Assembly: GCA_035772405.1 (NCBI GenBank)
Contig: JAYKKM010000263.1
Location: forward strand, 2,046,501 to 2,110,500
Direction: 5' to 3'
From: Chrysogorgia sp. JL179-B06
Lineage: Eukaryota > Cnidaria > Anthozoa > Scleralcyonacea > Chrysogorgiidae
Length of the DNA: 64,000 bases
Positions 13,660 to 59,963 of the stretch are shown here, in pieces (the first letter of the stretch is position 1; each line of letters opens with the position of its first letter). Position numbers and translations under genes: made by a program. The notes beneath the pieces were generated by a model. That model saw only the letters and a list, made by a program, of their open reading frames with translations, had not been told where the DNA came from and ran no database searches.

Positions 13660-14813
13660 CAATGGACAATTTGCATTATAGCAATGCATCATGGGTAAAA
13701 TGGTAGCGCTTCATTTGCAGGGGAAATGGCCGCAACGAAGTGAGCATTTTGCTTGTGAAAATAATTGATTATTTTAAGCACATTGTCTGTAGCGCAGAAG
13801 AATTTCGAAATGGGCAATGTAGTTAGGGGATTATAAAGTACGTTGTGTACCAAACACAGCGAAATCACAGCAGAAATGGACGAGAAAATTGCTATAGATC
13901 TATTGAAGGAGCGAAGAATATGGCAATAAATATGTTCCTGAAGGGAGGTTCTTCTCGACGTTTACAGGTGAGTAAGCTTAGTGAACAACGGATAGCTCAC
14001 CATTTTACCTCACAGACATGTGTGTGTTGTTGTTTTATTACGATCTTGTATTTGCTGAATCATCAAGTGTTCTATAATGATTTTTTCGTTTGTTGAAATT
14101 GACAAACTTTGACCATGATGTCTGTCACTTGTTCGATAAGCATGTCCTCTGAAGACAATGTTTTTAAATTGTTTTTAAATTGTTTTGGCGCGAAAATAAA
14201 CCGGTTTTATCGGTAACGGCTCTGGCACTTTGTAAAAACACCAAAGAGAAAGCACTTTTGCCTGGGTTTCTGCTGTTGTTTTGCTTTTCTGTTTCGTTTG
14301 TTGTGGTCGGTTCATATCCTCTCAAATAAACCAGTAGGTTCTAGAACTAGTGTAGACTGTAAATATAAATTCATAACTCTAAATTCGTTAAAAACGTTGA
14401 AAATTTACCGAGTTTTGTTGCTGTGTTGTAGGCGACAAGCTTTTAAAACAGTGACTTGGAAATTAATATAATTTTAGGCTAGCCTGAGTCACCCGAGTGT
14501 AAACTATTTTTCGACTTAAAAATTCGAATCTATTCATAGGATAATATATATAGTAGACTAGTGCATTGTTTAAAATATAATCTTGTTTTAAATCTTGATA
14601 GTTATATTAAAATTTTTAGGTAGGTAACTGTATATACACATAGAGTAAATTTGTAAATAGTCAATTGTAAAATATATAATTATATAAAAGCATATCAGTA
14701 ACATAAATATAATTGTAAATAAGAAATAGGTTTTAGTATTAATTTATATAATGGACAATGAACCGGGTCCTTCAATGGAGTCAGACAAAGAATTGCCAAC
14801 TTTAAGAGGCGGG
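13660..14813 (+). repeat. left terminal inverted repeat with promoter-proximal exon and start codon
   Basis: It extends from the outer tip through a putative 5' exon (donor CAGGTGAGT at 13968), an intron, an acceptor (TTTTAG near 14735) and the first 21 codons of the transposase. Sequence diverges from the other arm exactly after GGCGGG at 14813. Confidence 0.9.
13845..13967 (+). other. putative 5' exon inside the inverted repeat
   Basis: An open frame starting MYQTQRNHS ends at a strong donor (TTTACAG|GTGAGTAAG). The same exon is present in mirror image at 18963-19085. It probably supplies the 5' leader of both element genes; whether it is translated is unknown. Confidence 0.5.
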
Positions 14814-16235
14814 GGATTAACTACGTGTTCAGAAAGGAAGAGAAAAGGAGGTGGAACCTCTTGCTGTATTCCTACATGTGATAGCAACACAAAACGAAAT
14901 CCAGAGCTTTCATTTTACCAATTTCCAACTGATAAAAAGCTAAGAAAGATGTGGTTGCATTGGGTTGGTAGAGCTAACTTCGTACCAAATAAGTATCACA
15001 AAGTTTGTTCCAGACATTTTGAGGGTGGGAAGAAGACTTGTCTTCATAACATTCCAACCATTGTACCTAAATTAATATTGCCAAGACCAACAAAGCCTAG
15101 ACCAACATCAAAATGTAGGGATAGAGCCATTAAAAAACAGGACAATCATAGTCAGATGAAAGAAGAAAGTGCACCATTGGAAGACATGCAACAACACAGG
15201 ATCTCAGAACTTGAGCATTTAGTTAAGACTCTTCAACAGAAAAACCAAGAGCAAGAAGAAGAGATTTGTAGTCTTAAGAAAATGGTTCAGCAAAAAACTT
15301 TCTCTGTAGAACGGTTTAAAAGCAGAGATAGTGATTTTGAGTTCTACACTGGGTTCTGTGATTACAGCACATTTAAGGCATTTTATGATTATCTTTGTCC
15401 TGCTTGTGAAAGGTTACAGTACATTGGATCTTGCAACAGTACAACACAAACAGTAACATGGCAGAAGTGTGGACCAAAGCGGTTGTTATCCTCGGAGGAA
15501 GAGCTATTCTTGTGCCTTTCAAGACTTCGATTGGGTTTGCTGGAAAGAGATTTAGCAAACAGATTCAACTTGTCTGCATCCCAGGTGTCAAGAATTTGGG
15601 TTACATGGCTTGACTTCTTGTACAGGAGATTACGATCCATCCCCATCTGGCCCTCGCAAAATTATGTAAGGGAAACAATGCCAAAAAGTTTTAAAGAAAA
15701 TTATCCAAATACTAGGGTCATAATTGATTGTACAGAATTATTTATAGAAATACCCTCTCAACCAAGAAGTCAAAGTGCTACTTTTTCAACGTACAAACAC
15801 CATAACACTGGCAAAGGTCTGGTTGGTATTTCTCCCAGAGGTGACTTAACATTTGTCTCAGAACTCTATGCTGGAAACACTTCAGATAAACAATTGACCA
15901 ACGACTGTGGAGTTCTGAAGTTACTGGAACCAGGTGATGAGATAATGGCCGATAGAGGGTTTGGTATCGAAGACGATTTACCAGCTGATGTCTCATTAAA
16001 CTTACCTCCCTTCCTTGGTGAGCAGAAACAATTTTCTGAAGAGGATGAAGTCAAAACGAGAAGGATTGCCAAACACCGTATACACGTTGAACGAGCTATT
16101 CAGAGAATAAAGAGCTTTCGCATTCTCCAGCATAACTTACCAATTTCAATGGCTGCTGACATGAACAAGATTTGGGTTATTTGCTGTTATCTAACTTTGT
16201 TCTCCAGACCATTGATCCAGCAACATGAAGAGTGA
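14751..16235 (+). CDS. THAP-domain DDE transposase (ISL2EU-like)
   Basis: 494 codons, intact. Residues 1-21 are encoded by the inverted repeat. A THAP C2CH zinc finger follows at about 38-100 (CCIPTC, FYQFPTD, WLHWVGR, VCSRHF) and is expected to bind the element's ends. A coiled coil (LEHLVKTLQQKNQEQEEE) and an HTH-like region (LFLCLSRLRLGLLERDLANR) come next. The DDE_4-type nuclease is at about 325-475, with D in VIIDCTELFIE, D in IMADRGFG and E in HVERAIQRIKSFR. All three acidic residues are present. The reaction is cut-and-paste transposition in the nucleus. It converges with the YqaJ gene and the two stops are 330 bp apart. Confidence 0.93.
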   Translation: MDNEPGPSMESDKELPTLRGGGLTTCSERKRKGGGTSCCIPTCDSNTKRNPELSFYQFPTDKKLRKMWLHWVGRANFVPNKYHKVCSRHFEGGKKTCLHNIPTIVPKLILPRPTKPRPTSKCRDRAIKKQDNHSQMKEESAPLEDMQQHRISELEHLVKTLQQKNQEQEEEICSLKKMVQQKTFSVERFKSRDSDFEFYTGFCDYSTFKAFYDYLCPACERLQYIGSCNSTTQTVTWQKCGPKRLLSSEEELFLCLSRLRLGLLERDLANRFNLSASQVSRIWVTWLDFLYRRLRSIPIWPSQNYVRETMPKSFKENYPNTRVIIDCTELFIEIPSQPRSQSATFSTYKHHNTGKGLVGISPRGDLTFVSELYAGNTSDKQLTNDCGVLKLLEPGDEIMADRGFGIEDDLPADVSLNLPPFLGEQKQFSEEDEVKTRRIAKHRIHVERAIQRIKSFRILQHNLPISMAADMNKIWVICCYLTLFSRPLIQQHEE

Positions 16236-16568
16236 TAGTCTTCAATATTAATAAGTACAAATATTGTTCATGGTACACATTGGTGTAAATGAAAGGTTAC
16301 AGGCCATAATGTTTTTTGTGGTACTTAAAGTACTGTAGACAGCACTAATTATATGTACCTGTATTTTGGTTTTTGTCAAGATATATACATATATGTTATT
16401 ATCTAATTAGATCAGAAAACGGCTGTTTACATTATACTGTGTTCAGAATTTTTAATATGGTACAACATACTGTACTTTATCAATAATAATAAGTTCATTT
16501 ACTGAACAATTTTGTTTCGGATCAGTGTTTCATTCTTTAACATTGTTAATGATTTTACATCACTATAA
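16236..16568. other. 3' intergenic space between the two convergent element genes
   Basis: AT-rich, no gene. It should hold the 3' ends of both transcripts. I cannot place a unique polyadenylation signal. Confidence 0.6.
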
Positions 16569-18179
16569 TTAAACAAGATTTATTAAATAATCAAAATAAA
16601 AAGCAGTTAATTGAGGCAAAGTACTCTCTTCCCATTCAAGTTCATTAAAGTGTAGCCTCTCAACATGAACATCACTTATTGTGTAAACAACAAAATCTAA
16701 GAAAATCAACTGGCAAATTGCCATAACTCCTTGTGATTGATAAAAATAAATATGTTTCTTTTTAAGAGAAGGCTTGCCATTTACAAGCTCTAAGCAAAAG
16801 GATTTATCACCACAGGCTTCCATAATACTAATATCTGCTTTGGATGCTGGACATTTCACCTCCACAGCTCCATAGACTGATGGTTCTCTTTCATCAGAAA
16901 TTAAAGCATCAGGGCTTGATCCAAGCCATGGCCACTTCGGATTAACAACTAAACCACAGGCAGAACAAACATCTACATGTTGGTTGAGCTCTTCTTTATG
17001 CTCATAGTATCTTAGTAAAGCAGCCTGTTCATTTTCAGTTCCCCACTGACAACTTGCACTTTTTGTTTGGCATGGTTTGGTGATTCTGTTTACTATACTC
17101 TTTGGATAGATTGACTTTCTTCTCTTCATTACAAAGCCAAACATTGATGAAGTCAACCGACATTTTCTTTGATCATACCATTCCTTGCATTCACTTTGTT
17201 TACGTGTATTCTTTTCAAGTTCTTTGCATGTCTCATTGTCTACAAGTAACATATCTTTAATAAAATTAATGTATTTTTCTTCTTTAGGAACTGTAGCACA
17301 ATCTAATCCTTCATTTAATTTTGAAAGTATGTGACACCTTACATTTGTTGAATCTAGTTTATCACCCACTCGCTCTGCCTTTACAATTCTCTTCCTTGAT
17401 GGCAATTCATCAACATTAAATTCACATGGAACACAACCCGTATCAGTTAATTGGTCAATTAAATGGCATTTACTTGAATTTCCTGCTCTTTCTAACCCAG
17501 CTTTAAGACGTTGCAGGTCACTTTTGTAAACCTTTTCAGATGTTGAACAATAAGCATCCCTTTTACCTTCTAGCACATGACGTTTGTACCCTTTTTTGTC
17601 CTTTTCATAAGTGTCTTGTGGAAAAATGAGATCTTCAAACAGTACTGCATCCTGTGTGTGTGATCTTTTTGGGACATGCCACTGTTGAAGTTCCTGAGTG
17701 CATGTCTTGTCATCAAGTATCTCAGTCAGTCCAAGCTCAATGTAGTCTAACAACTGAAACAAAAGGGCTGCTACATGTTTGCAACGACCTCCAGCACCAG
17801 CAGGACAGTAGCATTTTGCAAAAACAAGATCTCCAGAGGTTTGGTCCAGGTGAACATAAACCAGGTATTGTTTTTTTCGCATTTGAGCACTTACTTGGCA
17901 ACGTACAAGGAAATGAACTGCTTCACTCCCTTTCTTCACATTTGGTTTGACTTGAATATGTGTTGTATACCCAGCCTTAAAAAGTCGATATCCACTTTTC
18001 TTGTGTTTAAATGCTTCAGCAGGCTTGCAATCAGGTGTTTTTTCAGATTGAAGGACTAAATGCTCTTCTAATTTTTTGTATGAAAATTCTGGAATATCTT
18101 TTAAGCTCTTTGTCCACCCGCCTCTTAAAGTTGGCAATTCTTTGTCTGACTCCATTGAAGGACCCGGTTCATTGTCCAT
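16569..18179 (-). CDS. SWIM zinc finger and YqaJ-type nuclease (ISL2EU partner protein)
   Basis: 536 codons, intact. Residues 1-21 are identical to those of the transposase because the start lies in the inverted repeat, which ends at 18117. A SWIM finger lies near 118-145 (KCYCPAGAGGRCKHVAALLF: C-x-C then C-x-H). The C-terminal half is a YqaJ-like PD-(D/E)xK exonuclease: LTSSMFGFVMKRR, CQWGTENEQAALLRY, PWLGSSPDALI, and AVEVKCPAS with the E-x-K. YqaJ is the phage lambda-exonuclease-like family. In this element it probably processes DNA ends during transposition, but its role is inferred. Confidence 0.93.
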   Translation of the reverse strand: MDNEPGPSMESDKELPTLRGGWTKSLKDIPEFSYKKLEEHLVLQSEKTPDCKPAEAFKHKKSGYRLFKAGYTTHIQVKPNVKKGSEAVHFLVRCQVSAQMRKKQYLVYVHLDQTSGDLVFAKCYCPAGAGGRCKHVAALLFQLLDYIELGLTEILDDKTCTQELQQWHVPKRSHTQDAVLFEDLIFPQDTYEKDKKGYKRHVLEGKRDAYCSTSEKVYKSDLQRLKAGLERAGNSSKCHLIDQLTDTGCVPCEFNVDELPSRKRIVKAERVGDKLDSTNVRCHILSKLNEGLDCATVPKEEKYINFIKDMLLVDNETCKELEKNTRKQSECKEWYDQRKCRLTSSMFGFVMKRRKSIYPKSIVNRITKPCQTKSASCQWGTENEQAALLRYYEHKEELNQHVDVCSACGLVVNPKWPWLGSSPDALISDEREPSVYGAVEVKCPASKADISIMEACGDKSFCLELVNGKPSLKKKHIYFYQSQGVMAICQLIFLDFVVYTISDVHVERLHFNELEWEESTLPQLTAFYFDYLINLV

Positions 18180-19270
18180 TATATAAATTAATACTAAAAC
18201 CTATTTCTTATTTACAATTATATTTATGTTACTGATATGCTTTTATATAATTATATATTTTACAATTGACTATTTACAAATTTACTCTATGTGTATATAC
18301 AGTTACCTACCTAAAAATTTTAATATAACTATCAAGATTTAAAACAAGATTATATTTTAAACAATGCACTAGTCTACTATATATATTATCCTATGAATAG
18401 ATTCGAATTTTTAAGTCGAAAAATAGTTTACACTCGGGTGACTCAGGCTAGCCTAAAATTATATTAATTTCCAAGTCACTGTTTTAAAAGCTTGTCGCCT
18501 ACAACACAGCAACAAAACTCGGTAAATTTTCAACGTTTTTAACGAATTTAGAGTTATGAATTTATATTTACAGTCTACACTAGTTCTAGAACCTACTGGT
18601 TTATTTGAGAGGATATGAACCGACCACAACAAACGAAACAGAAAAGCAAAACAACAGCAGAAACCCAGGCAAAAGTGCTTTCTCTTTGGTGTTTTTACAA
18701 AGTGCCAGAGCCGTTACCGATAAAACCGGTTTATTTTCGCGCCAAAACAATTTAAAAACAATTTAAAAACATTGTCTTCAGAGGACATGCTTATCGAACA
18801 AGTGACAGACATCATGGTCAAAGTTTGTCAATTTCAACAAACGAAAAAATCATTATAGAACACTTGATGATTCAGCAAATACAAGATCGTAATAAAACAA
18901 CAACACACACATGTCTGTGAGGTAAAATGGTGAGCTATCCGTTGTTCACTAAGCTTACTCACCTGTAAACGTCGAGAAGAACCTCCCTTCAGGAACATAT
19001 TTATTGCCATATTCTTCGCTCCTTCAATAGATCTATAGCAATTTTCTCGTCCATTTCTGCTGTGATTTCGCTGTGTTTGGTACACAACGTACTTTATAAT
19101 CCCCTAACTACATTGCCCATTTCGAAATTCTTCTGCGCTACAGACAATGTGCTTAAAATAATCAATTATTTTCACAAGCAAAATGCTCACTTCGTTGCGG
19201 CCATTTCCCCTGCAAATGAAGCGCTACCATTTTACCCATGATGCATTGCTATAATGCAAATTGTCCATTG
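18117..19270 (-). repeat. right terminal inverted repeat of the ISL2EU-like element
   Basis: Mirror image of 13660-14813. It holds the same putative 5' exon (18963-19085), intron and start codon, and drives the YqaJ gene leftward. 19271-19963 beyond it is the rest of transposase intron 3, with no gene seen. Confidence 0.9.
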
Positions 19271-26388: not shown

Positions 26389-27333
26389 TTACATTCTTTC
26401 GGTAATAAACTGCAGAACTTCCATATAAATATCCACACCATGATAGGCAGAAGGACGATTTGGATTAATATTTTGTTGAAGCTCAAGCCATGTATTTTCA
26501 TTCAATGGTATACCATTGTTTGTGGAACTTCTACATGAACACTCTCCTCTTCTGTCGCGATTGGACCTTCCCAATCAATTCCAAAATGTTCTGGGTTTAT
26601 CTACATAAATGTATACACATATATACTGTCTTAAATATACTGCATAGGTAAAAGAATCTGTAATGAGTAGTAACTAATTATATTGCGTTCGTAAAGCCTG
26701 CCGCAAACGAAAGCAACTAGATGAGTTAATCACTTCAATAGGTTGTTAGCTCACTTTATTACAAATGTTGTTCTGATATTATTTACCTCATTGTTAAACT
26801 CATGAGCGACTGTTCCACCTGAGCTTCTATTTCTTAGCATCCCATTTATCCAAAGCTGCTCTGGACTTTGGTTTCCTTCTGTGCTGATAGGTGCACTGCT
26901 ATGCCCAGCTTTAAATATGTCCAAACTTTCATTTATTCTCTTTTCATATACAAAATGAAGAGCAGCTAAGTGACACTCATTGGAAGCATCCAGAATACCA
27001 GACTCTTCCATGTGGTAAAATAGATAATAAAACAAAGTTGTGCAACCAGAAAACACGTCCCTCCATAACCTCTCGATCCTCTGATTGTGTACGCTACGCC
27101 CAGTAATGTGACTTCCCCTGTTAGGCCCACGCAATGGGTGGGTCAACATATACCAGGCAACATAAATATTCTCGCCCCCTTTGTAGGATCTGACTCGTGA
27201 AGGTAGGCCAAACTGAGCAACCGCTTGCTGGAAGTGACCGAAAACTGTGGTAGCTCTGTTATTGGTGGAACAGCACAAAAAAACAATCATACGTGAAAAT
27301 CCATCAATTCCACCATGAATCACAAATCTCCAT
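26389..27333 (-). CDS. HTH-integrase gene, 3' exons (DDE catalytic core)
   Basis: Exon 2 (27333-26763) joins exon 1 in phase to give [19 protein letters not shown]. It covers most of the retroviral-type integrase core: [13 protein letters not shown] at the second catalytic position, [16 protein letters not shown] with the third acid, and [12 protein letters not shown]. The second position, normally S-D-x-G-x-E-N in this group, is S-Y here, so the catalytic Asp is lost. Exon 3 (26600 to 26389) gives HFGIDWEGP and then needs a 1-nt shift near 26515 to continue as [10 protein letters not shown]. The gene was an integrase of the transposon and is now probably inactive. Confidence 0.8.
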
Positions 27334-28244
27334 CTATAATCATAATGAAGTGAAATGATAAGAGAAAGTATGTGCCTGTTATACGATTGTAACTTCCCCC
27401 ACTGAGAAATGTTTGGAGCAAACCATGATCTCCACCAGCAAAAACCCTTGGTGTAGACTGTAGATGATGGAACAAGGATAGTGTCAAAATGCCCAAAATC
27501 GCCATGTTTATCTTAACTTTATTTGCCTAAGCGCACTGTCCAGTTACTCTCCGGTAAATCATTAAGCTCAGTGTTCATGCACATCAGGAATGGAAATCTT
27601 TTATATCTGTTTGGATGCTATGCCTATCTTCTCACCGCGTATTGCTTTGTTTCTTCATTGTATGGTGATTGTCTCGTGTTTGTTTAAGGACAGTAGGCAA
27701 CACTAGTTTTGCTATTGAAAGCATCAGATTTTTGTTTATTTTGCTTTAGCTCAAATCAAAAATATGCTACCGCCAAAACTTTGACTCCTTATGTTTAAAG
27801 ATGATTGTTTTATATGGATACTTTTTCTATACAAAGTGGATTTATAATGAAAATAAAATGTTATAGGTAAAATATGCTAGTATGACCGAAGATTGGTTTT
27901 GCAGAAGAAGCTTCTTATCCAATCACAGCACATTTCACCAGAAGTAGCACTTGCCATAATAATTATACAGTAATAAGATATTTATTATTTTATTATACAA
28001 TCAGTATGTAGTCAGAGCCAGAGGATACAGTGCTGACCACCTAAGTAAAATAATTGTACTTCGTCGCATATTGAAAATAATCAAACAATGCGCAAACAGA
28101 CTTTGTATATATTTGAAATAAGCCCCTTCTCTATTAAGACCCCCCCCCCCACCTCAAAAAAGTTTGAAAAAATAAGCCCCCCAGGAGCCTAATAGAGAAA
28201 TTATAGTATACCGCTTCAATGTCATGAACAAATAAGCAATTTAC

Positions 28245-28948
28245 CTGATCAATTTATGGTTGCCATCAATGTGCCAAAGTGCTAAAGGAGATGGAACTGA
28301 ATAGCACCTATGATTAATCACATTCAACTCTAGTGCGCGTATAAGAGTTCCCTCCGGATCTACGCGACGCATTGACTCACGGACTCTTCCTTGTTGAACC
28401 CTGTGACCTCGAGCAGCAAGGTAACCTGTCATTCTTTTATATCCAGTGTAAGGCAGAGTTCTTAATATTTCCCTAACCGTCGAGTCCAGCTCCTCCACAG
28501 TTACATTTGCATATGTCCCCCTTATTGATATACCAAAGTGCTGTAATCGTCGCTCGACTGTACGCTCACTTACACCGAGTACGGCTGCGATTTGCTCAAT
28601 GGTAAACCGTCTCTCCACAAGAAAGCTCAACTGTTCGTAAGGAAGACTAAACCTTGGTCTTCCTCGATTGCCTGTGAAAATAACTTCGGTCTCGACGCTA
28701 ATATCTTCTGAGCTGTCTATTGAAGTTAAATTAATCAAAGCTTCGGCAAGAAGATCGATAACATGACGATCTATAAAACCGCACTGATAGTATCTTGTTA
28801 CGACACCAAATAGCCATTCTAGTCTAAAGAGAGCATTTTCTCGGCATTCATCTTCTCCACCGCGCGCTTCGACTTGATGTAAAATGTTTAAAATACAACA
28901 TCTAATGCGATTTCTTATAAACTGCCGTCCTTCCAAACCATCGGCCAT
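28245..28948 (-). CDS. HTH-integrase gene, exon 1 (DNA-binding region)
   Basis: Starts at MADGLEGRQFIRNRIRCC. Near residues 95-140 is a bipartite helix-turn-helix: LVERRFTIEQIAAVLGVSER then TVERRLQHFGIS. A GYKRMTGYLAARGHRVQQGR segment follows. The exon ends at LWHIDGNHKLIR, which holds the first catalytic Asp, with donor CAG|GTAAAT. Together with 27333-26389 it makes a single integrase-type protein of about 460 residues. It converges on the HECT gene. An intron of about 0.9 kb (27334-28244) has no other gene. Confidence 0.85.
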
Positions 28949-29016
28949 GTTTACACCATGTTTATAAATATATCTTATTTTAACTTAGTTCCAGTTTTGC
29001 GCGGTCGTGTGTGCTA

Positions 29017-38740: not shown

Positions 38741-39313
38741 GTCTCTTTGATTTTTTTTCGACAACTCTGATGTCCGTTGGCCAATTCAATATTATCAAAA
38801 AGCAGTGGCAACAGCTTTAGAGCACATTTTACTGGGTCTTTAGGTAAGGTCCTGCTGCCACATTTAGGAGGTTTAAACCATCATGCATCTTTAATTAATA
38901 CAGGATAATTACAAAGCAATGAATACTTACAAATCTAACAGAATTTGTTTCAATAAAGAAAATCATTTACAAATACCACAAATTAATTGCACAGCAAGTA
39001 ATATGTGAACAATGTACACAATAGGTTGTAGTTAAGGTGATTATAATTAAAATTACTTACAAATTCCACAACGTCTTGTTTTGACATTGGTGCTAGCCAA
39101 CTGGAGAACTTCTATCTGGCAAGACCTACAAGTACATAATGAAAAAAGCAAAATTATTTTAACACTTCAATCTTGATGAGTTGTCATGCTTTTCTGGAGT
39201 ACTGTGGGGATTCCACCACTTTTTTCGCCAGGGTTACGGTGTTGCTCTGACCAAATGCAGGGAGCGCTGCCCAGCCCTGTCAAAAATCAAATGTGGTTGA
39301 ATCAAACGTTGTG

Positions 39314-39391
39314 TAGCCTCCTCCGGAGGAGCAACTCTGTGTCTGCTTACTTCTTTAAGTAAGAAGACACAGTTGCCTGCGGAAGAGGCTA
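39314..39391. mobile_element. 78-bp MITE with TAGCCTC ends and 9-bp duplication
   Basis: TAGCCTCCTCCGGAGG and CCTGCGGAAGAGGCTA are inverted. AACGTTGTG is duplicated at 39305-39313 and 39392-39400. The tips and duplication length match those of the 10.2-kb RecQ element at 49746-59954. 38741-39304 and 39401-40485 hold no recognised gene. Confidence 0.9.
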
Positions 39392-40485
39392 AACGTTGTG
39401 GGTGATACTATCAAAATTGACACATGTCATTGAACATTTATATATTCGTTTATATTGTGAAACTAATTGTAGACAATGTTATATGTCAATTTTTTACTTT
39501 CATGACCAGTGGCCACACCCATTTGACTTTGAGAAATCTCCGCTTCTGAAATTTGGAAAACGTCATAACAAAATTATAGAAAGATTGGCATTATAGTCAT
39601 TGCTCTTAGCCCTTCTCCAAATCTTTCACTCTTACTCCTCATGAGAGGAGCACCTGGACCTGGGGTGGGAAAGTAGGTTTTGTCAATGAATAGATTACTT
39701 ACGCGGGGTACCCAAAGCTGTGTTTTGATATCGAGCGGATAAACAAGATCGAAAGACCACTACAACATATTGTTTCTAAAATTCCGCGGTATGTGAAAAC
39801 GGCCTTGCGAATTGTCAGCGATAGTTCTAAAGCAACTTTGTTAAAAGTTTAAAAGCCAAATCTTTGGTAAACGATTTTGATCCAACGAATAAAGGACGTC
39901 CAGTCACAATTACATTCGTCGCGATCTACGATCTCCTACTTCCTTAACGTAAGTCACAGGAAAGACACGGGACTAACCCTTGTAGACCTTGTAATCGTTA
40001 CTAAATACCTTCAAATATTCTTTCGTTTGACTAGCTGAAACATGATATCTTATTTACCTTTCACTACTTGTATTTTTAAATTTCAAATTTGTTATCCTAC
40101 TTTGACCGTTTGTAATCTAAAAACTGTTTAATAATTTGGCAAAACACAGTAAACAATTCCGCTTTCAATTTTCCTTCACTTGAAATACGAGATTGTCGCG
40201 AAAAATCGGTGACTGTTTTAAAATCGACTGTCTTTGACAAGGTGACAGAATAAAGTAAGAGCTTTGAGCAATTCAGTTTAACCAAATGTTCAAATACACC
40301 CTTTAATATAATGGCCTAAAGGTTGAACACCACGTTGAAATAATGTGACATTCGTCAAAAACTATCCTTTCGATGAGATGGTTTTCCGACAAAGATTTGA
40401 TTTTTTTCTGCTAAGCGCTTGTTTAATGAACAATAACTTCAGGCGTGCAGCCGTTTATACCACTTTATCAATCGTGCCATTGCCA

Positions 40486-47253: not shown

Positions 47254-47404
47254 GAAGGGAAATTTCGAGTGTTGGAATACATACATTTGAAGACCAAACC
47301 GGGACCAGTTGCTCTCTCTCGGCAACGGCTTCCGTAGCTCAGTGGTCAGAGCACTGCACTAGCATCGCAGGGTCTCGGGTTCAATTCCAGCCGGAAGGCC
47401 TTGA
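47254..47404. mobile_element. partial copy of the tRNA-carrying MITE
   Basis: The left arm (GAAATTTCGAGTGTTGG variant, AAGACCAAACCGGGACCAG) and the tRNA-Ala-like loop (47327-47400) are present. The variable region is complete (GGGTCTCGGGTTC) and A and B boxes are intact. The right arm is replaced by the 185-bp satellite. Confidence 0.75.
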
Positions 47405-49141: not shown

Positions 49142-49745
49142 TTGGTGGTTTCCTTTAGTGGAGGTTCAAAAAGGGAACTTATTTAATAACTATTACCATG
49201 CAGCTTGTAATTTCAAGGATTAAAATATGAAACAAAATCCAAACATTCACATTATGTAAATCAAATTACTGCAGAAAGGAAAAATATATGCTATTTTTTA
49301 TTATATGAAATTAATTGTTTTGTGCCTAAACCTGTTTAAGATATGAGGGAAAAAATAATGGATTTGGCCTGGTTGATCAGTATGGCTAAGAAATAGATTA
49401 AAGTTTCAATATTAACCAGCAATGGTTTAGGTTTAGTATATAGAATCAAAATACACATGACAAAATACACATGAGTTATTAAAAATGTTTCTTTAATCAA
49501 ATCATGGACAAAGTTTATGACACAGTACAATTATTCTATATAAAGCCACTATTAGTTGTCTTACTGTTTCACCTTCAAATTCGTTCCTTCTTTTTTACGC
49601 CTTGTAACACAACAACAAATATTGATCAAAATGACATCATTTATACATGACATGGCGTCCACTATAAACCAAAAATATAAGTGCAGCCTATCCACATTTC
49701 ACGTCATGAACTCGACTGTAAATATTCAACAATCGTGGTATTAAG

Positions 49746-49830
49746 TAGCCTCCTTCGCAGACGTTCTTTGTGGGCCGTGTATGCCCGCCCCCCACTAACG
49801 TCTGCTCAACCGAGCGATACATTCCATTCC
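49746..49830 (+). repeat. left terminal inverted repeat
   Basis: Complement of 59870-59954. It contains an inner inverted pair GCAGACGTT...AACGTCTGC. Confidence 0.92.
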
Positions 49831-49919
49831 GACAGTTTAACCAATCAAAGCTAACCTTCCCAAATCAGGAAGCTCGCCCTTGACCTTGGCCGCTCTTGAA
49901 TATATTTTCCCGGCAAAAG

Positions 49920-52064
49920 ATGGCGGATCTCGAGTTGGCGTTCAAAAGAGTATGCGAGAAGTTTCAGATAAAGGCGCTCAATCCTTGTCAACGAAAAGCG
50001 ATTATTCATATAGTTGAGAAAAAAACTGTGTTCGTTAATCTTTCAACTGGGTTTGGTAAATCTATGATTTACCAAGCATTACCATTAATTGTGGATACCA
50101 TCTCCAAAGCGTCGGGGCACATTGTTGTGGTTGTTTCTCCGCTTATTAATCTCATGCAAGAGCAAGTTCTTTATTTACGTGATGTTGGAATTTCTTCAGT
50201 TTGTTTGAGTAAGATCAAAGATGAAGAAACAAGAGATATAGAAGAAGGGAACTTCTCTGTTGTTTATGCAACGCCTGAAGCATTAATCAAGAATGAACGT
50301 TGGCGAAAAATGCTGTCGAGCAGCGTTTATACATCGAAGATGTGTGCGATTGCAGTGGATGAAGCTCATGTCATCAAGCAGTGGTAAGTAATGACACAAA
50401 TAAAGAAACCAACCTGTTTACGTACATCAAACTACAAATATTGTGGTTTATTAAATAAATTTTGATTGCATTGTGATTGTTGATTGTGTTGTGTTAAATA
50501 AAGTTTATTAAATTATTCTCATTTTAAACTCAGCAATTGTTTATCATCATATTGTTTTACTTTATTATTTGAGTTTTCTTTAAATTCCATCCCATCGAAT
50601 GTATAATACAATACAAATTTTCTCCTTGTTAACATTTATATTTTATTTTTTAGGGGAACCTCAAATAACACAAACAAAGCAGTATTTCGAGAGTGTTATT
50701 CTCGCTTGCATGAACTAAGAGCTCTTGCTCCATTGGTGAATGTTTTGGCCCTCACTGCAACAGCTACAAGATATACAATAAATACAATGTTGGAAGTTTT
50801 AATGCTTAAAGAACCCTTTGTGATATACGAGAGCCCAGACAAACCAAACATTGCATATTCAGTACTTTACATTAGCAAGGATAAAAGTGTAGAGCACTGT
50901 TTCAAATGGCTGAGCGACGAACTTATTGAACTTGGTACCAATACAACACGTACTATAATTTACTGCCAAACCATAAAGCAATGCACAGTTATTTACACAA
51001 CAATCAAAGCAATGCTTGGCAAGAATCTTTTTATAGGTGAAACAAAAGATTACAAAAATGTCCTACTTGAAATGTTACATTCTTGTACACCTGATGATAA
51101 TAAGGCGACAATTTGTACTTCATTTCAGGATGAAGCATCAGGAATACGAGTTTTGGTAGCAACCATTGCCTTTGGTATGGGTGTTGACTGCAAGGGTGTC
51201 TATCGGATAATTAATTTTGGGCCTTCAAAGAACGTTGAGTCCTACATTCAAGAAAGTGGACGAGCAGGAAGGGATGGGAAGCAAAGTGTTGCATATATAA
51301 TTTACCATGGCTTGCTCCTAAATCATGTGGGAAAAGACATCAAACAGTATGTTAATACATTGAACTGCAGGCGAAAAATGTTACTAAGTCACTTTGATAC
51401 CTCTTCACAAGTGAAGTGTCCTAAGCAATTGCACTTATGTTGTGATACTTACTGTGCTAGTAAGTGTGAATGTGGAGCTCCTGATTGTGGAAAATTGACA
51501 AAATATCCAGCTCATATAATGCCAGACAGTAAAACAGCTAATTCTAGATGTTCAACTAGACAAGTCCTGCCTAATCAAAAGCATGTCCTGCAGACAAAAT
51601 TGATTTTGTATTACAAGTTGTTGGTTCATGATATGATCAGTAAATCTGCAAATATGAAAACTTTGATGGACATCAAATTTTTGCTTGGCTTTTCAGAGCA
51701 ACAAATATCTCAAGTGTTGGATAACTGTGACAAACTTTTTTCCATTGAAGACATTTTAACTTATGTGGAGATATGGGACATTAAACATGCTCGTGAGATA
51801 CTCCATATGATTGGTCAAACATTTGAAGATTGTGAAATACCATACCCTAGTCAAAGTGAGGGCTTTGATGAACATGATGATGACGACATATGTCTTGGGG
51901 ATTGGAGTGTGTTACTTGATGATGATGAGCTGTTTGACCAAGCAATGGAAAATTTATCTTTATCCTTACTTTCTGTTTCAATGAATATGTCTGCTGATGA
52001 AACAATTGATGGTGTTTACCTACCTGAGGCTGCAACTAATGCACTTGAAAACTTGATGCTTTGA
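49920..52064 (+). CDS. RecQ-type DNA helicase
   Basis: Two exons, 49920-50383 and 50654-52064, joined in phase at a Trp codon (VIKQW-GTSN). The ATG at 49920 is the first in frame. About 624 residues, uninterrupted. Superfamily 2 motifs are complete: I GFGKS, II DEAH, III LTATAT, IV TRTIIYCQ, V ATIAFGMGVD, VI QESGRAGRDG. A Cys-rich zinc region follows (LCCDTYCASKCECGAPDC) as in RecQ; no HRDC domain is visible. It should unwind DNA with ATP in the nucleus. As cargo of a transposon with 9-bp duplications it may help excision or repair of the element; that role is inferred. Confidence 0.92.
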
Positions 52065-52386
52065 CCAAGGTTGATTTAGTATAATTTTTACTTTATTATT
52101 ATCTTACAGTACAGGAACTAAAATTACAGTATGCCAGGGTTCGTACCAACTTGAATGTCCTTGAAAATATGTAAATTTGAAACAAAATTCAAGGCCTTGA
52201 AAGTCCTTCATAATTTATTGTTTACAGGGTATGGTACTCTAATTTTACCAAATGATTTTGCAATATATAAGGCCAACAAGTATAATTGTCAATATCTAAG
52301 TTGTAAATTCACACAAAGCTCTGAACTCACCATCATTCCAAGCACTATCATTCAAAAATTAATGTCAAGTATTTATAAAGGGGAAA

Positions 52387-52660
52387 ATTTCATGATAATT
52401 ATATTCATGATTATATTCCTGATATTCAATGGAACATTCTGACAAGTACAGTAACTTAAAATATCTTCTCAGCAATATTGATGTCAAAGTTACCAGACAT
52501 GATACCATGTTACCAGACTGGTTTGCCATGCCTGGTATGATGTCATGTCCTGTAACTTATAGACAACAAAAAGTCCATGAAGATGAAGTTTTCTACTGAG
52601 AAGATATATTACAATACTTGTCATAATGTTCCAAATAATTATCATGAATACTGTATAATG
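52387..52660. mobile_element. hairpin MITE between the two convergent genes
   Basis: AAATATCTTCTCAG and CTGAGAAGATATAT, GGAACATT-TGACAAGTA and its complement, and CATGATAATTAT on both sides form long imperfect arms. Confidence 0.65.
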
Positions 52661-52805
52661 AAATTACATGTTCCTGTTCTGAAGGATAATTTAATTGTTT
52701 TATTGTTGAGCATGATAGGTAGAATTATACTGTACTTATATTGAATTGTACTGTACTGTACTATTCAAATTGGCCAGATGATCTCGTTCAAACTTTGGGA
52801 AATGG

Positions 52806-53853
52806 TTATACTGCCTGCTTGTGTGGACATACATCAGTGCTCACTGCTCGGTCGACCAGTTCCTTTAAATCTTTTTCCACTGAACTTTGGGTGTGCATTC
52901 CTGACCTGGATACTCTATTGATATACTTATCAATATTGTCAGTTATAGAACGTGCACCAGCTTCTGCATGACATATACGAGATACTGCCTTTTCAGTGAT
53001 GTTTGGCCCAAGGTTTTTGATTGCTTGCTTTAAAAAGTGATTACTATGTTCAACATCAAGGTCTACTGCAATATTTCTACCTGCTCCTCCAGTTGTATTT
53101 ACACTTCTGTTCCACATAAATCTTTCGCTGTCCCGAGGTGAAAGAAGGGATTCAACAAGGAATGCTTGATAGAGACATTCCAAAGCATATTTGGTGCTGT
53201 GTTGGCCATCAGCTTTACATAGAAGTAGAAGATACTTGTACTGCCTTACAACTCTTGCTCCATCCCCCTCCTTCACTGCATCCAAAAAGTTCATGAAAAA
53301 AAGACCATCTTCTAGTAAAGCAGTTGTAACTGTAAATGTCATCTTCAGGTGTTGATTTTGGAGTTTGTTCATGTGGAATTGGCGGAGGTTTGTGGGTCAA
53401 CTCGTGTGCCTGCCTACTCTTGCCATCATACTTGAATGAACGTGGGCAACCAACAAATCTACAGGGAAATCTTTTTCCATTCCCCTGTTCTTGTATGGAA
53501 ATGCTACAAGTAAGTGCCTTGTCAATGGAATCATTATTACCAACCAACTTGTCAACAATTTGTGCTGATGCTTTGTGCAAGTACTGCTGTTTGGTAAGTT
53601 TGCTTTGACCTGACATGTTTTCAGGCAAAGGAAAGTTGTTGGGTTGATCCAATTTACTTGCAAATCCAAGCACTGCCATCGCTGCAGCTATCACTCTTGA
53701 CCTGACAACAACAAGAAGAAGAAAATCTCTGTCTGCCCTGTATGCTAATTTTGGATCAGCTTTGACATTTCTACGGTTGATCAGTGTACGATCTGAGTAG
53801 AGCGTACAATTATCATTATCAGACTTTCCCGAAAAAAATCGTTTGAATATCAT
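52806..53853 (-). pseudogene. DUF6589-like transposon protein, 3' exon
   Basis: Starts after a TTTTCAACAG acceptor. It has a C2H2 finger (FPCRFVGCPRSF then RQAHELTH) and continues with YKYLLLLCKADGQHSTKYAL, SPRDSERFMWNRSVN, DLDVEHSNHFLKQAIKNLG and a C-terminal ISRSGMHT-like end (RVSRSGMHT). These are the most conserved blocks of DUF6589 proteins as I recall them. Reading through requires a 1-nt shift near 53315, just after PEDDIYSYNC. The C-terminal half is otherwise open. Probably the transposase candidate of the element; that is inferred. Confidence 0.75.
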
Positions 53854-53930
53854 CTGTTGAAAAGAAAATTGTTTGTCAATATACTAACAGACATTTTGAT
53901 TCTTCACCTTTGTCCAATCTTTATGTAATA

Positions 53931-54030
53931 GATAAAATACTCGCGTCAGATCTGTATGGGCATTTACAATGGCAAGTGCGTAGCACGAGCCATTGTAAAT
54001 CCCATACAGATCTGACGCGAGTATTTTATC
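53931..54030. mobile_element. 100-bp hairpin MITE
   Basis: GATAAAATACTCGCGTCAGA and its complement form nearly perfect 43-bp arms around a 15-base loop. Confidence 0.85.
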
Positions 54031-54833
54031 GTACTTGTAAAATGAACCAATGAATGATGCTATAGGCTTAATTAGTATTCATAACTTTGTTAAAGATCGT
54101 CTTAACCAGTATTCAATCTTTATTGAGCTTTACAAAGCTATACATGTGACCAAAATACCATGCTGTGATTGTGGCTTTAGGCCTCATTAATTATTCATGA
54201 ATTTCACAAGGGTATTTATAAATGCATTTATATTTATATTTGTAAATGCCCATAAATATCAGCTGCTCATATTTTAACTAGTACATGTTGTATTTCCACT
54301 ATCATAGCATTGGAAATTTAATAAAAACATCCATTGCTAGTAATGATATTTAGGTTTATATAACTTTCTATTTCACATTTGGTCAAATGGTTTTTGTTTT
54401 TTATGTTATGTGGATTTGGGCTACAGGTATTTCTTAGTAGGGTTCAGGGCTGTATAGTGGAGTATATTTAAGTGCCACTGCAGGTTGTGACACTTAGGGG
54501 GCATTACCCCTGGAAAATTTTTGGAATCTCTGAAATGCCAACCACTGAGTCTATTGATATTATTAATTTATATTATATATTACAATCTGTCGTATTTGCG
54601 TAATTGTTAAATTTATTGAAAAAAATTGACTGGAGTAAAATAATGCCATCATTGGCAGTGCCGTGGCACTTGCTACGGCCCTGCGGTTGATGTAAAAGTG
54701 ATGGATGAGGGTCAGCAAAAGCATGTAGATGTAATTTTATTGTTCACAGTAAGCGTTTGGTGGGAGTGCAAGCCTTCATTTGGCATGTATATCTTAGATG
54801 ACATGAAAGCTATAGTATGTAGCTGCAACTTAC

Positions 54834-55065
54834 ACTCAGAATCTTCAATCCAGTATGCCATTCACCAAGTTGTTAAGTCATGCCTTCAAGTCGGCTTTCA
54901 GGTGTATACCCGTTGGAAAGCGATCCTATTACATTTACAGCCCTTTCAACTGTCAACTGATCACCAGCAAACAGTTGGCCATCATATGTACCATCCGCTT
55001 TCTTTGGAATGTAGGAGTGAAAATGTTGTAATATTGCTAACATGTCAGCATTCTCATTTTCATTT
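54834..55065 (-). pseudogene. DUF6589-like protein, internal exon with a stop codon
   Basis: The acceptor ATATTTAG and a GTAAGTTG donor bound a frame reading ADMLAILQHFHSYIPKKADG, then FAGDQLTVERAVN, then QLGEWHTGLKILS. GDQLT-ER and L-EWH are diagnostic of this family. A TAA interrupts between EGMT and QLGEW. Confidence 0.75.
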
Positions 55066-55509
55066 CTAAATATAACACCCAGAGGAACCTATATGGGAAA
55101 CATATAATATTCCAAAGTTTTATTGACTGCTAAAGCTTGCAGCAATTGTTTACATGAGATTCTTTGTTTTACCTTAAAGTTAGTTTTTAACCGAAATAAG
55201 TTATAAAAATGCCAGGATGGGAATCAGTTGTATGTTCTGCGATCAATGTTCTGCCTAGCCTGCGTAGCCGGCGTTTTTTTAGGGAGGCGGAATGCGAGCG
55301 AGTCAGAATGCGGGCGAAGAGGGAGGGAAAAACCGCCTGCCGCAAAACTAGGGGTATTTGCATTACGCCTCCAACGACAATTATCCTAATCTGATTAAAA
55401 ACAACCAATCGTATGACTGTTTTGTAATATGAGCACTTGCATGGATTCATAACAATAATAGTAAAAGTTCAGGTGCGAATCTGTCAAACTCACTTTTGCG
55501 TGCAACAAA

Positions 55510-55835
55510 TGCAAACCCCAAAGAAAAAGGCCAGTAACGGAAAAAAACAAAACGTTGCAAGTGCCAGCGATTTCTGTAGATTGTGCAATTGTCACATTAT
55601 TCTGAACGGGTTTGTAAACCGTGTGCGCGAAAAATACGGAATGTCCACGGAATTGTACAATTTTTATATTAAAACCCGTCTAGACGCAAATCCTTCGCAA
55701 GACCCAGCAGATAAAGAGGACACAAGCAGCAAGTTAGCAACTATTCTGGCACCGCAAGATATAAGCGATTATTACCGTCCACTGTTTGTTCACCAAAAGT
55801 TTACCAAAAGCGCTTTTTATCTTCCTGAAATTTAA
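55510..55835 (+). pseudogene. N-terminal exon of the second (zinc-binding) transposon gene, truncated
   Basis: MQTPKKKASNGKK leads to DFCRLCNCHI, a CxxC unit like the LRCFLCN start of the related gene at 59724, then a truncated helical region ending LFVHQKFTKSAFYLPEI. The partner CxxC is missing. Confidence 0.6.
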
Positions 55836-55974
55836 AGGCAATATGTGTATTTATTTTTATGTACTACTGCATACATTTATGAAGTGTAATTATGACTGCT
55901 GATTTTATCAAACACGGCAATCAATTCTCGTTGACTCTCTCATTGAATGTACTCTCATCAACTTCTTCATGTAA

Positions 55975-56360
55975 CCAGCTTCCAGCTTATATATTGATCA
56001 GAGTCACTGAGAGCCAACGATATATTGGCGCGTTGTATTTGAACGCGAGTCTCTCGGAAAGTTCCACGGCATTGAATCCCATTGACTTCATACATCTCCG
56101 CTATCTGGCCTGAAATTATATTCGTGACAGATGACCAGAATAGACGAAGCAGTATCCTTCTCCAATCGTTTGAGCATTTCTTGCCTTGCGAGGACAAAAA
56201 TTGTGAAAATCATGCTCTTACCAAAACCGGTTGGTAAAACCGCGAGAACACCGTTACCTAAAAGAAGTTCCTCTACAGCAACTTCTTGTTGTTCTTTCAG
56301 AATAATTTCTCGTCGAGTATTTCGCAAAATAAGTTTCCAACGCTTTAACCATACATTCTT
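55975..56360 (-). pseudogene. RecQ helicase first exon, broken
   Basis: LRNTRREIILKEQQEVAVEE is followed by VLAVLPTGFGKSMIF (motif I) and SSILVIC. The frame then shifts near 56120 to SGQIAEMYEVNGIQ. Helicase motifs II-VI are absent. Confidence 0.8.
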
Positions 56361-56870
56361 TCATGTAGTGGCCGTTGACTAATATTTCAATTTGATTGAT
56401 TGTATTTGACACCTCTTGAAATATTAACCAATCAGTATTTTCCGTTCACCAGTGGACGGATAATGCAAATACCCATAGTTTTGCGGCAGGCGGTTTTTCC
56501 CTCTCCCTCCGCCCGCATTCCGCCTCGCCCGCATTCCGCCTTGCCTGAAGCTCGCTTGCTCGACCCCAAACCCCTAAAAAACCGCCGGCTACGCCGGCTA
56601 TGTTCTGCCAAGATTCTGATAGAGATTGTGTCAAAACTTAAAACTTATGCAATGCAGTTTATATAATTATATATATAATTACAAACATTACAGTAATGTA
56701 ATGGTTTGTGATTTTTACAGAAATAAAAATGAAAACTTGGATACATTTAGCCATGTGAATACGTTAGAAGTCCACTGTTTAATATATACTCAGATAATTT
56801 TAAATGCATAACAACATAATTATGTATAATTATAATAATTATAAAAAATACTGTAAGTAAATATATGTAC

Positions 56871-57429
56871 CTTTGTTGACTTCTGAGACATTTCCTTACT
56901 ATAAGTATGAGGAATGTGGTAAATACAGACATCCTTAAGTGGACAAAAGGCATCAAAATACTCAACCAAAATCCTTAATACCAAAATGATGTAGTTAAAC
57001 CGTTGCTTTTTCATATCATTATGTGAAGGCAAAAATTTTAGGTTAGATACTTTAGAAATATCTTCTTTTTGTCCTTTACTTGTATAAGAATTACCAGATA
57101 CTCTGTTTGTTACCATGCGGTGATTGATTCAGTGAATGTCCCTATTTTGATTAGCCATTGTCATGTCCTTTGTTTTAATTTCCATGTCAATGTTATCAAA
57201 GGCAATAGTAAATCCTGGGTGATGGTTTGTTGTCTGATGCTTTAGTTCTTCTTGTGCATTATTTTTCTCTGCTGCATGATTTGCTTCGCATCCCTCTGTA
57301 CAGTCAGCAGAACAATTATGAACACTTGTGCTGATATCCTCTAGATGCTGTATGTTGCAGTTCTCCTTAGTTATAATGTCCTTAGCAGTATGAAGCTCCG
57401 CATCAAAATCTTTCCCAAGGGTGTGTGCA
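56871..57429 (-). pseudogene. DUF6589-like protein, internal exon with a stop codon
   Basis: The frame reads GFTIAFDNIDMEIKTKDMT, ANQNRDIH-stop-INHRMVTNRVSG, then FLPSHNDMKKQRFNYIILV and CIYHIPHTYSKEM. The stop (TGA near 57131) stands where the family has Trp, so a single G-to-A change explains it. The donor AAAG|GTACAT is at 56870. Confidence 0.75.
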
Positions 57430-57629
57430 CTGATTTGAGCATGTCAGACGCATCTTACTAAATCTTTGAAGGGTTGACTAAAATAAATCATAAATAATTT
57501 ATTATAATTATTAAAACATGATGCCCTTATAAGTTATAACCCAAGAGGTGTACATTTACAAGTCAAATTATAAATAAACAACTACAATATTTACATGTAT
57601 ACATTGTTTATTTAGTTGTTTAATCGTAC

Positions 57630-59724
57630 GCAGCCAGTGGCATTCATATGCGCGTTTCTTTGCTTTAACAAAATTGATCCAGCTAGCGCAACACTCGGAA
57701 GCCATCGTGCTTCTTTAGTACTGCGGGACAAGGCAACTGTCATCAAGAAGGCATAAAAGACTGGCGTTCTAGTCTGCCATTCCTCGCATAGTGATTGCAC
57801 TGAATAGTTAACCAATTCACCTTTTCCAGTTTTCCTTAGTATGGATGGGGTTTTCCTCGAGCAAATCCCACTCACCTCGTTAGAGACTGTACGAAGAATG
57901 TTTTCTACAACAAACTTTAATATGGGATTACATTTCATGACTGCATTCGCTATTCTCTTAGGTTGTCCGTGAATTAGAGCCTTTCCAAGGGCCTCATAAT
58001 CTAATGACAATGTCTTGTTAACAGTTCTGCTCGGATATTCTACATATATCTTCACCTTTGCTGTTGAAACTGGGGAACACGGTACAGTTAAGGTTGGTAT
58101 GGTACTGGTAGAAGATGGTATTATCCGACTCCCTTGAATAGGGCTAGAAGTCAATGGGTATGCAAAAGATGTATTCTGAGCGACGGGTGGCGGAAAATCA
58201 CCAAATTGCATATGATCTCTGGACAATGTTAATGAGCCAAAGGCGTTGAAACCCACTTGATATCTCTGATGACCATGAAATTGCGGTAAATATAATCCAG
58301 AATTATTTCCATAAGATGTACAAGTCGTAGTGGGATTGGAAAAATCCAATGATTTAGCTAAGCCAACGCGCTGATTTATTGCGGACGATGTTAGTTTTTC
58401 AGGTGGTCGAGCAGAATTGCTCTGGTCCATATCTGAATTTTTCCGCATCCTTTTGACTCTTAAATTTCCATCTTTAGTAAAATCGTTCTTAATTTCTTCC
58501 TTCGCATCTTCTAAATTCTTTATCTTTTTTTCTAGTCGCAGCAACCGTCTATAGCATGTCTTAAAGCATATGAACAGATCGTTCCCAGAGGACAAGGGCC
58601 GCGGAACCGGGGGGGCACTGGGGGCAGATGCCCCCCACTTTTCAAAAAATTGATAAATGTGCCCTTTTCCTGAAAGAAAAATGCCCTTTTCCTGAAAGAA
58701 AAATGCCCTTCCGGATTGTAATTTTATAAATGTGCTGGTTATAAGGTTTACTGCCTATACTGGGAAGAATTAATGTGCCCTTTTCACAGAAGCATGAGTA
58801 TGACATTGCTATTTGCTGTAGAAAAGAGTGACTGCCGTTGCCCGAGGCACAAGGGATCAAGGGCGCAACGACCCCCCTTTTGGAGGCACGAGGGAAAATT
58901 TTGGAGGTCAAAAGTTACTTTTACAGCACTATTTTGATTTTTTTTAACTTGAATTATATAAAGCTCCAAATTTATAAAATTTGCAAAAGGGTTTGTCACG
59001 ATCTTGTTACGTTGTTCACGATCTTGTTTCAATTTCTCCGCCGATGTGGCCGAGGGCTCGGGACTGACAAATTTCCGTGCGCGACCGGAAGGCTCTGGGA
59101 ACAAGATTGCTGCACGGCCATCATGTTTTATACGAATTTTTCGAGCACGATGCCACTTGAGGTTAATATGGATAAAAGAAAACTGTGCCCACCTAATTTA
59201 CACTTCCAAATTACCAAACGTTTTCTCAAACAATATTAAAATGCAAGTCTAATCTCATTTGGACCAAATGTTTCTTAAAAATAAGACTTTCGTTTTTGCT
59301 CAAGTGTCCTCAAAATGCAGGAAATGCCGTTTTAGAGACCCAAATTTCAAAATTGTTTTGTGAAAACGACCCCCTTTCAAAAATCCTGGTTGCGCGCTTG
59401 CAAGGGTGACGTAAAATAATTATTAATGAAATATATATGATAAAGTTCAACTGTTTCTGATTTATAAACAAAATAAAGCAAATGGAAGGTACAACGTTTT
59501 AAATAATACAAATATTTTTAAAATAACCAAGGTGCCCCTTTTTGGCGGTGCCCCCCCACTTTTCAAGTTCTTCCCCGGCCTCTGCCAGAGGAGTAGATAT
59601 TGACATCGACATCAATTGCCGTTTTGATAAGACCTTTCAGGTCTACTGATGTTTTCCCAAAAATTTTAATTCTTTCATTATTTGGTGGAGCGCTGTTACA
59701 AAGAAAACATCGCAAATCTCCAGA
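57630..59724 (-). pseudogene. DUF6589-like protein, 5' exon split by a hAT-like element
   Basis: After the acceptor AAAATAG at 59725 the frame reads SGDLRCFLCNSAPPNNERIK, then AIDVDVNIYSSG. It breaks at 59585 and resumes at 58592 as NDLFICFKTCYRRLLRLEKK and continues to 57630 (KFVVENILRTVSNEV, SILLKQRNAHMNATGC). Removing the insert and one 8-bp copy restores one frame with two CxxC pairs, probably a zinc-binding module. The insertion alone inactivates the gene. Confidence 0.78.
58593..59584. mobile_element. hAT-like element inserted in a coding exon
   Basis: 992 bp. Ends CAAGGGCCGCGGAACC and GGTT-like complement CTTCCCCGGCCTCTG are imperfect inverted repeats. An 8-bp duplication, CCAGAGGA, is at 58585-58592 and 59585-59592. 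No transposase of its own. The inside repeats TTTTCCTGAAAGAAAAATGC and CCCCACTTTTCAA. Confidence 0.85.
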
Positions 59725-59869
59725 CTATTTTTTGTGGTGTTTTATCCATTCCTGAGCTTACATACTGAAAATAAAATAATAATTTTTCGCGGGAAATTCA
59801 TTGTTTACTTCTTACTTTGCCCCCCTGTGAACAATTTAAGCAAATCTGATTGGTTCCTCAAACACAAAG

Positions 59870-59954
59870 GGAATGGAATGTATCGCTCGGTTGAGCAGAC
59901 GTTAGTGGGGGGCGGGCATACACGGCCCACAAAGAACGTCTGCGAAGGAGGCTA
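59870..59954 (-). repeat. right terminal inverted repeat of the RecQ transposon
   Basis: Mirror of 49746-49830, followed by the GGTATTAAG duplication. Confidence 0.92.
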
Positions 59955-59963
59955 GGTATTAAG

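Follow-up and report, generated by a model that had tools for sequence, protein, structure and literature searches.

A DNA transposon with DUF6589 and RecQ genes in Chrysogorgia sp. JL179-B06 and its probable AcademH-type affiliation

Passages citing the AcademH work describe it as a lineage of Academ that carries a helicase, makes 9-10-bp target-site duplications (TSDs) and occurs in animals and fungi, and RecQ helicase in Academ had already been noted in 2013 (PMC3627910). Its sister lineage inside Academ, AcademX, is given in the passages seen a nuclease, no helicase and a 3-4-bp TSD. KolobokH, as far as the passages of PMC9587614 describe it, is a DDE transposon with RecQ that is reported from fungi only; Kolobok elements are characterized there by a TTAA TSD, RR..YY ends and a C/DxxH motif between the second D and the E. 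Passages of PMC10045372, PMC12730594, PMC10799480, PMC12210899, PMC8290104, PMC9970103 and PMC6446971 were also drawn on. In this study, we analyzed a 64-kb stretch of DNA from the cnidarian Chrysogorgia sp. JL179-B06 (the window) and found an AcademH-like element of 10,209 bp at 49746-59954. We consider it very likely that this element belongs to an AcademH-type family of cut-and-paste DNA transposons, with a DUF6589 protein as its DDE transposase and a RecQ helicase as accessory protein.

The element is bounded by two 85-bp terminal inverted repeats (TIRs), at 49746-49830 (plus strand, starting with TAGCCTCCTTCGCAGACG) and 59870-59954 (minus strand), which are identical at 85/85 positions, and its termini read TAGCC...GGCTA. 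An exact 9-bp TSD, GGTATTAAG, flanks it at 49737-49745 and 59955-59963. The RecQ gene lies on the plus strand and the DUF6589 gene on the minus strand, so that the two are convergent. These results confirmed the well-defined ends with a 9-bp duplication and the pair of convergent genes that an earlier note on this DNA had described. The non-coding part of the element also holds a palindromic region (53923-54286) with a perfect 30-bp inverted repeat (53931-53960/54001-54030).

PF20231 (DUF6589) is listed by Pfam as a family of unknown function. We scored 7,992 candidates in a search for DUF6589 relatives and obtained 10 matches, nine of which carried PF20231; the tenth, P0010 from Nematostella, lacked this annotation and was excluded from the alignments. 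The PF20231 matches with a named organism came from Acropora, Nematostella, Stylophora, Dendronephthya (two), amphioxus and the hemichordate Ptychodera. A DUF6589 profile search gave 80 matches, many of them of 320-420 aa; P0018-P0024, among the latter, start at or near the protein N-terminus. Scans of viral contigs and prokaryote genomes with the DUF6589 relative P0001 detected no further relative, and NCBIfam gave nothing credible on two DUF6589 relatives. In the nine long relatives, the D of GDQL was retained in eight and the conserved H in all nine; the residue three positions before this His was G (4), A (2), E (2) or V (1). The earlier note had listed GDQLT-ER and EWH blocks and a C2H2 finger as motifs of this protein. 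Both blocks are present in the window. The finger, which lies between H520 and E808, was complete in 5/9 long relatives and incomplete in 2/9.

We then examined the predicted structure of P0001. The AF2 model showed a split RNase-H fold with the conserved D, D and E in catalytic positions. The best structural matches of this model were Hermes (hAT), the P element and the IS256 family (ISCth4); absence of a family from this match list is no evidence against that family. Foldseek alone on the P0001 model was not significant, and the model of the hemichordate relative was unusable and was kept out of the fold search. As predicted, DUF6589 shares with hAT (Hermes), the P element and IS256 (ISCth4) an RNase-H core interrupted by a large helical insertion that precedes the final catalytic Glu. 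PDB profile and Pfam searches found no sequence similarity of DUF6589 to these three groups, and the PDB sequence search with the profile of alignment A1 returned zinc-finger proteins as its top hits and no other credible match. The TSD of hAT and P elements is 8 bp, and neither is known to carry a helicase gene. Because of the predicted RNase-H fold, the conserved D/D/E and the matches to Hermes, the P element and IS256, DUF6589 is very probably the transposase of these elements. The earlier choice of DUF6589 as the best transposase candidate is thus supported by the RNase-H-like fold, the conserved acids and the DDE transposase matches, and also by contigs that it apparently has in common with RecQ.

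The DUF6589 gene of the window was found in several pieces, all on the minus strand. Its start, a Cys-rich N-terminal segment, was recognized by translation at 59593-59724, and its N-terminal exon spans 57612-58584, where a 380-aa open frame is listed at 57612-58754 and the true exon stops at an insertion. Joined across this insertion, the N-terminal segments matched the N-termini of relatives, with 74% identity to P0020 over 98 aa. The insertion of about 1 kb (58593-59584) is flanked by an 8-bp duplication, CCAGAGGA, and has the ends CAAGGGCCG / CAGAGGCCG; no long inverted repeat was found within it. From its 8-bp TSD and its ends, we take it to be a hAT-like, non-autonomous element. One or more exons with the conserved FDNID block (presumed first Asp) and in-frame stops lie at approximately 56865-57443, and an exon with the GDQLT-ER and EWH blocks (presumed second Asp) and one in-frame stop, identified by translation and comparison with relatives, at approximately 54831-55088. 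The C-terminal part (52809-53883), with the C2H2 finger and the presumed catalytic Glu block, occupies two reading frames and was identified by PF20231, which matched one piece in the window with E 2.1e-21 and a second with E 0.0012 (18 bits, under the Pfam cut-off of 27).

The RecQ gene consists of two exons joined by a GT-AG intron and encodes an uninterrupted protein of 624 aa. Exon 1 (49920-50383, plus strand) contains the DEAD domain (Pfam E 3.7e-17) with the Walker A motif and DEAH box, and exon 2 (50654-52064, plus strand) contains Helicase_C (E 1.1e-16), the GRAGRDG motif and a Cys-rich tail, in which RecQ_Zn_bind matched weakly (E 0.012, under the family cut-off). An alignment with four cnidarian relatives (623-634 aa) covered the entire protein. 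The earlier statement that RecQ is intact and its partner broken was borne out, the DUF6589 gene having in-frame stops, a change of frame and the ~1-kb insertion. In the search for RecQ relatives, 7,997 candidates were scored and 6,740 reached E <= 0.001; among the 120 matches listed, those with a named organism were cnidarian (Montipora, Stylophora, Oculina, Actinostola, Porites and Paramuricea). NCBIfam assigned the relative P0094 to RecQ, and a RecQ scan of viral contigs detected no relative.

To assess linkage in other genomes, we compared 87 contig sizes of DUF6589 matches with 120 contig sizes of the RecQ matches listed. Three sizes were common to both (594823, 353949 and 8133 bp), and for 594823 bp both the DUF6589 and the RecQ protein were from Stylophora pistillata. 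Jittered sizes gave an expectation of 0.35 overall, of 0.019 above 8 kb (3 seen) and of 0.00075 above 100 kb (2 seen). These results are good evidence that DUF6589 and RecQ genes lie on common contigs elsewhere, a statement that stops short of common elements.

The window was also scanned for pairs of TAGCC and GGCTA located 20-20000 bp apart whose 9-bp flanks agree with at most one mismatch. From 32 TAGCC and 37 GGCTA sites, the scan returned three pairs, the main element, a nested element and a 78-bp element, and 3/3 had exact 9-bp flanks; the chance expectation was 0.0033 exact pairs per window (one in total over 300 first-order Markov windows). The nested and the 78-bp element are absent from the earlier note. 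The scan covered 9-bp flanks only, so this TSD length was selected for in the nested and 78-bp elements. The nested element (55256-56600, minus strand; 1.3 kb) sits inside the main element, has the TSD TGTTCTGCC at 55247-55255 and 56601-56609, and its ends have diverged to 89-93% complementarity. Reading inward from its right end is a RecQ fragment (56091-56360, minus strand; DEAD E 7.6e-06, 26.2 bits against a cut-off of 26), which matched the Stylophora RecQ P0094 in blastp with E 2.7e-07. Reading inward from its left end is a small Cys-containing open reading frame (about 55500-55832, plus strand) with a TPKK motif and a CxxC pair, which did not match the N-termini of DUF6589 proteins significantly (best E 0.78). 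Because the nested element carries its own RecQ fragment and a small open frame without such a match, these are two distinct families of one kind, one nested within the other. The 78-bp miniature element (39314-39391) has the TSD AACGTTGTG at 39305-39313 and 39392-39400. The window thus has three elements with a common end motif, one full-size, one nested and one miniature, which helps to define the ends and the TSD length.

Compared with AcademH, the main element is alike in its helicase gene, here of the RecQ type and 624 aa, in its TSD, here 9 bp within the described 9-10 bp, and in its host, the named relatives being cnidarian and, for DUF6589, also amphioxus and hemichordate. The AcademH paper (Kojima 2020, Mob DNA 11:15) has animals and fungi in its title. 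The likeness is one of description, and from the agreement in gene content, in the range of hosts and in the TSD we infer that DUF6589 is homologous to the transposase of AcademH. AcademX differs in its nuclease, its lack of a helicase and its 3-4-bp TSD in the passages seen, against 9 bp here; Pfam found no nuclease domain in the window pieces scanned. The earlier note had expected a new transposase, and had said that a described superfamily with the same ends and genes would speak against this. It pointed to the right protein, DUF6589, but the kind is probably not undescribed, as the published AcademH, with its helicase and 9-10-bp TSD, largely corresponds to such a superfamily in the passages available.

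Alternatively, the element could belong to a new superfamily outside Academ in which RecQ, a 9-bp TSD and a DUF6589 transposase came together independently. In favor of this, our comparison with Academ was one of published descriptions, PF20231 has no assigned function in Pfam, DUF6589 did not occur as a term in the literature searched (PF20231 appeared, judging by abstracts, only in papers on unrelated subjects), and RecQ is also found in KolobokH and a red-algal Kolobok according to the passages of PMC9587614. The helicase, the animal host and the 9-bp TSD all agree with AcademH as it is described in print, and we therefore regard a distinct superfamily as unlikely. It is similarly doubtful that DUF6589, the linked RecQ and the TAGCC...GGCTA ends define a separate superfamily within the hAT/P/IS256 structural group, without C/DxxH.

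KolobokH resembles the element in its RecQ gene and, in the passages of PMC9587614, in a finger between the second D and the E, where a complete C2H2 finger was present here in five of the nine long relatives (H520-E808). However, the TSDs here are 9 bp (GGTATTAAG, TGTTCTGCC, AACGTTGTG) instead of TTAA, the ends are TA..TA instead of RR..YY, in 9/9 long relatives the residue at position -3 from the conserved His (G, A, E or V) does not fit C/DxxH, and the reported hosts of KolobokH are fungal only. A Kolobok-type element is therefore extremely improbable, and this assignment was rejected as contradicted by the TSD. A divergent MULE or hAT-like element, in which RecQ and DUF6589 are passengers moved by a transposase of another family, would accommodate the 9-bp TSDs reported in MULEs, and elements without their own transposase exist. 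Yet both the fold predicted for DUF6589 and its conserved acids are those of a DDE transposase, and DUF6589 seems to travel with RecQ on common contigs. In addition, a Pfam scan of 10 pieces of the window and 8 relatives detected neither a hAT nor a MULE domain, and even at E values up to 1 there was no hit to MULE, although a distant homology may exist. This explanation is therefore very improbable as well. We conclude that the element family is new, while its probable kind, AcademH, is known. What is new is the probable link of DUF6589, with its fold, to an Academ-type transposase; the link was not found under that name in the literature searched and may stand in Repbase or other papers.

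Starting from the observed ends, TSDs, gene content and conservation and from the predicted fold, we propose a mechanism in which catalysis, the helicase role, mobilization in trans and the AcademH identity are what we infer. The DUF6589 transposase would bind the 85-bp TIRs and pair the ends, with the Cys-rich N-terminus and the C2H2 finger, judging from their families, probably aiding DNA binding. The ends would be cut by a two-metal RNase-H-like site formed by the FDNID Asp, the GDQL Asp and the NIPLDLxxE Glu. Joining to the target with a 9-bp stagger, followed by host repair, would give the 9-bp duplication. RecQ would act as an accessory enzyme, probably unwinding DNA in excision or repair. 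A copy with a broken transposase, if mobile, would need transposase in trans; that the TIRs are perfect and the helicase gene is uninterrupted, while the transposase gene is damaged and the nested element has diverged ends, would be consistent with mobilization in trans after the damage, which a single copy cannot show.

Other features were observed elsewhere in the window. The inverted repeats of an element at 13660-19270 are 1154 bp long and 100% complementary, and its two convergent genes encode a THAP-DDE_Tnp_4 transposase and a YqaJ/SWIM nuclease. Both open frames start with an identical 28 residues, because the inverted repeats extend into both genes, and we take the element to resemble ISL2EU. 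Two adjacent open frames on the minus strand at 26754-28984, with an integrase core (rva_4) and an HTH domain, are probably another mobile element. A tRNA-Ala (AGC) gene was called at 47328-47400, about 2.3 kb beyond the main element.

These findings suggest a probable function, that of an Academ-type DDE transposase, and a predicted fold for DUF6589. If this is true, gene models of cnidarians and other organisms now labeled "uncharacterized" or "WRN-like" could be re-annotated as transposon genes.
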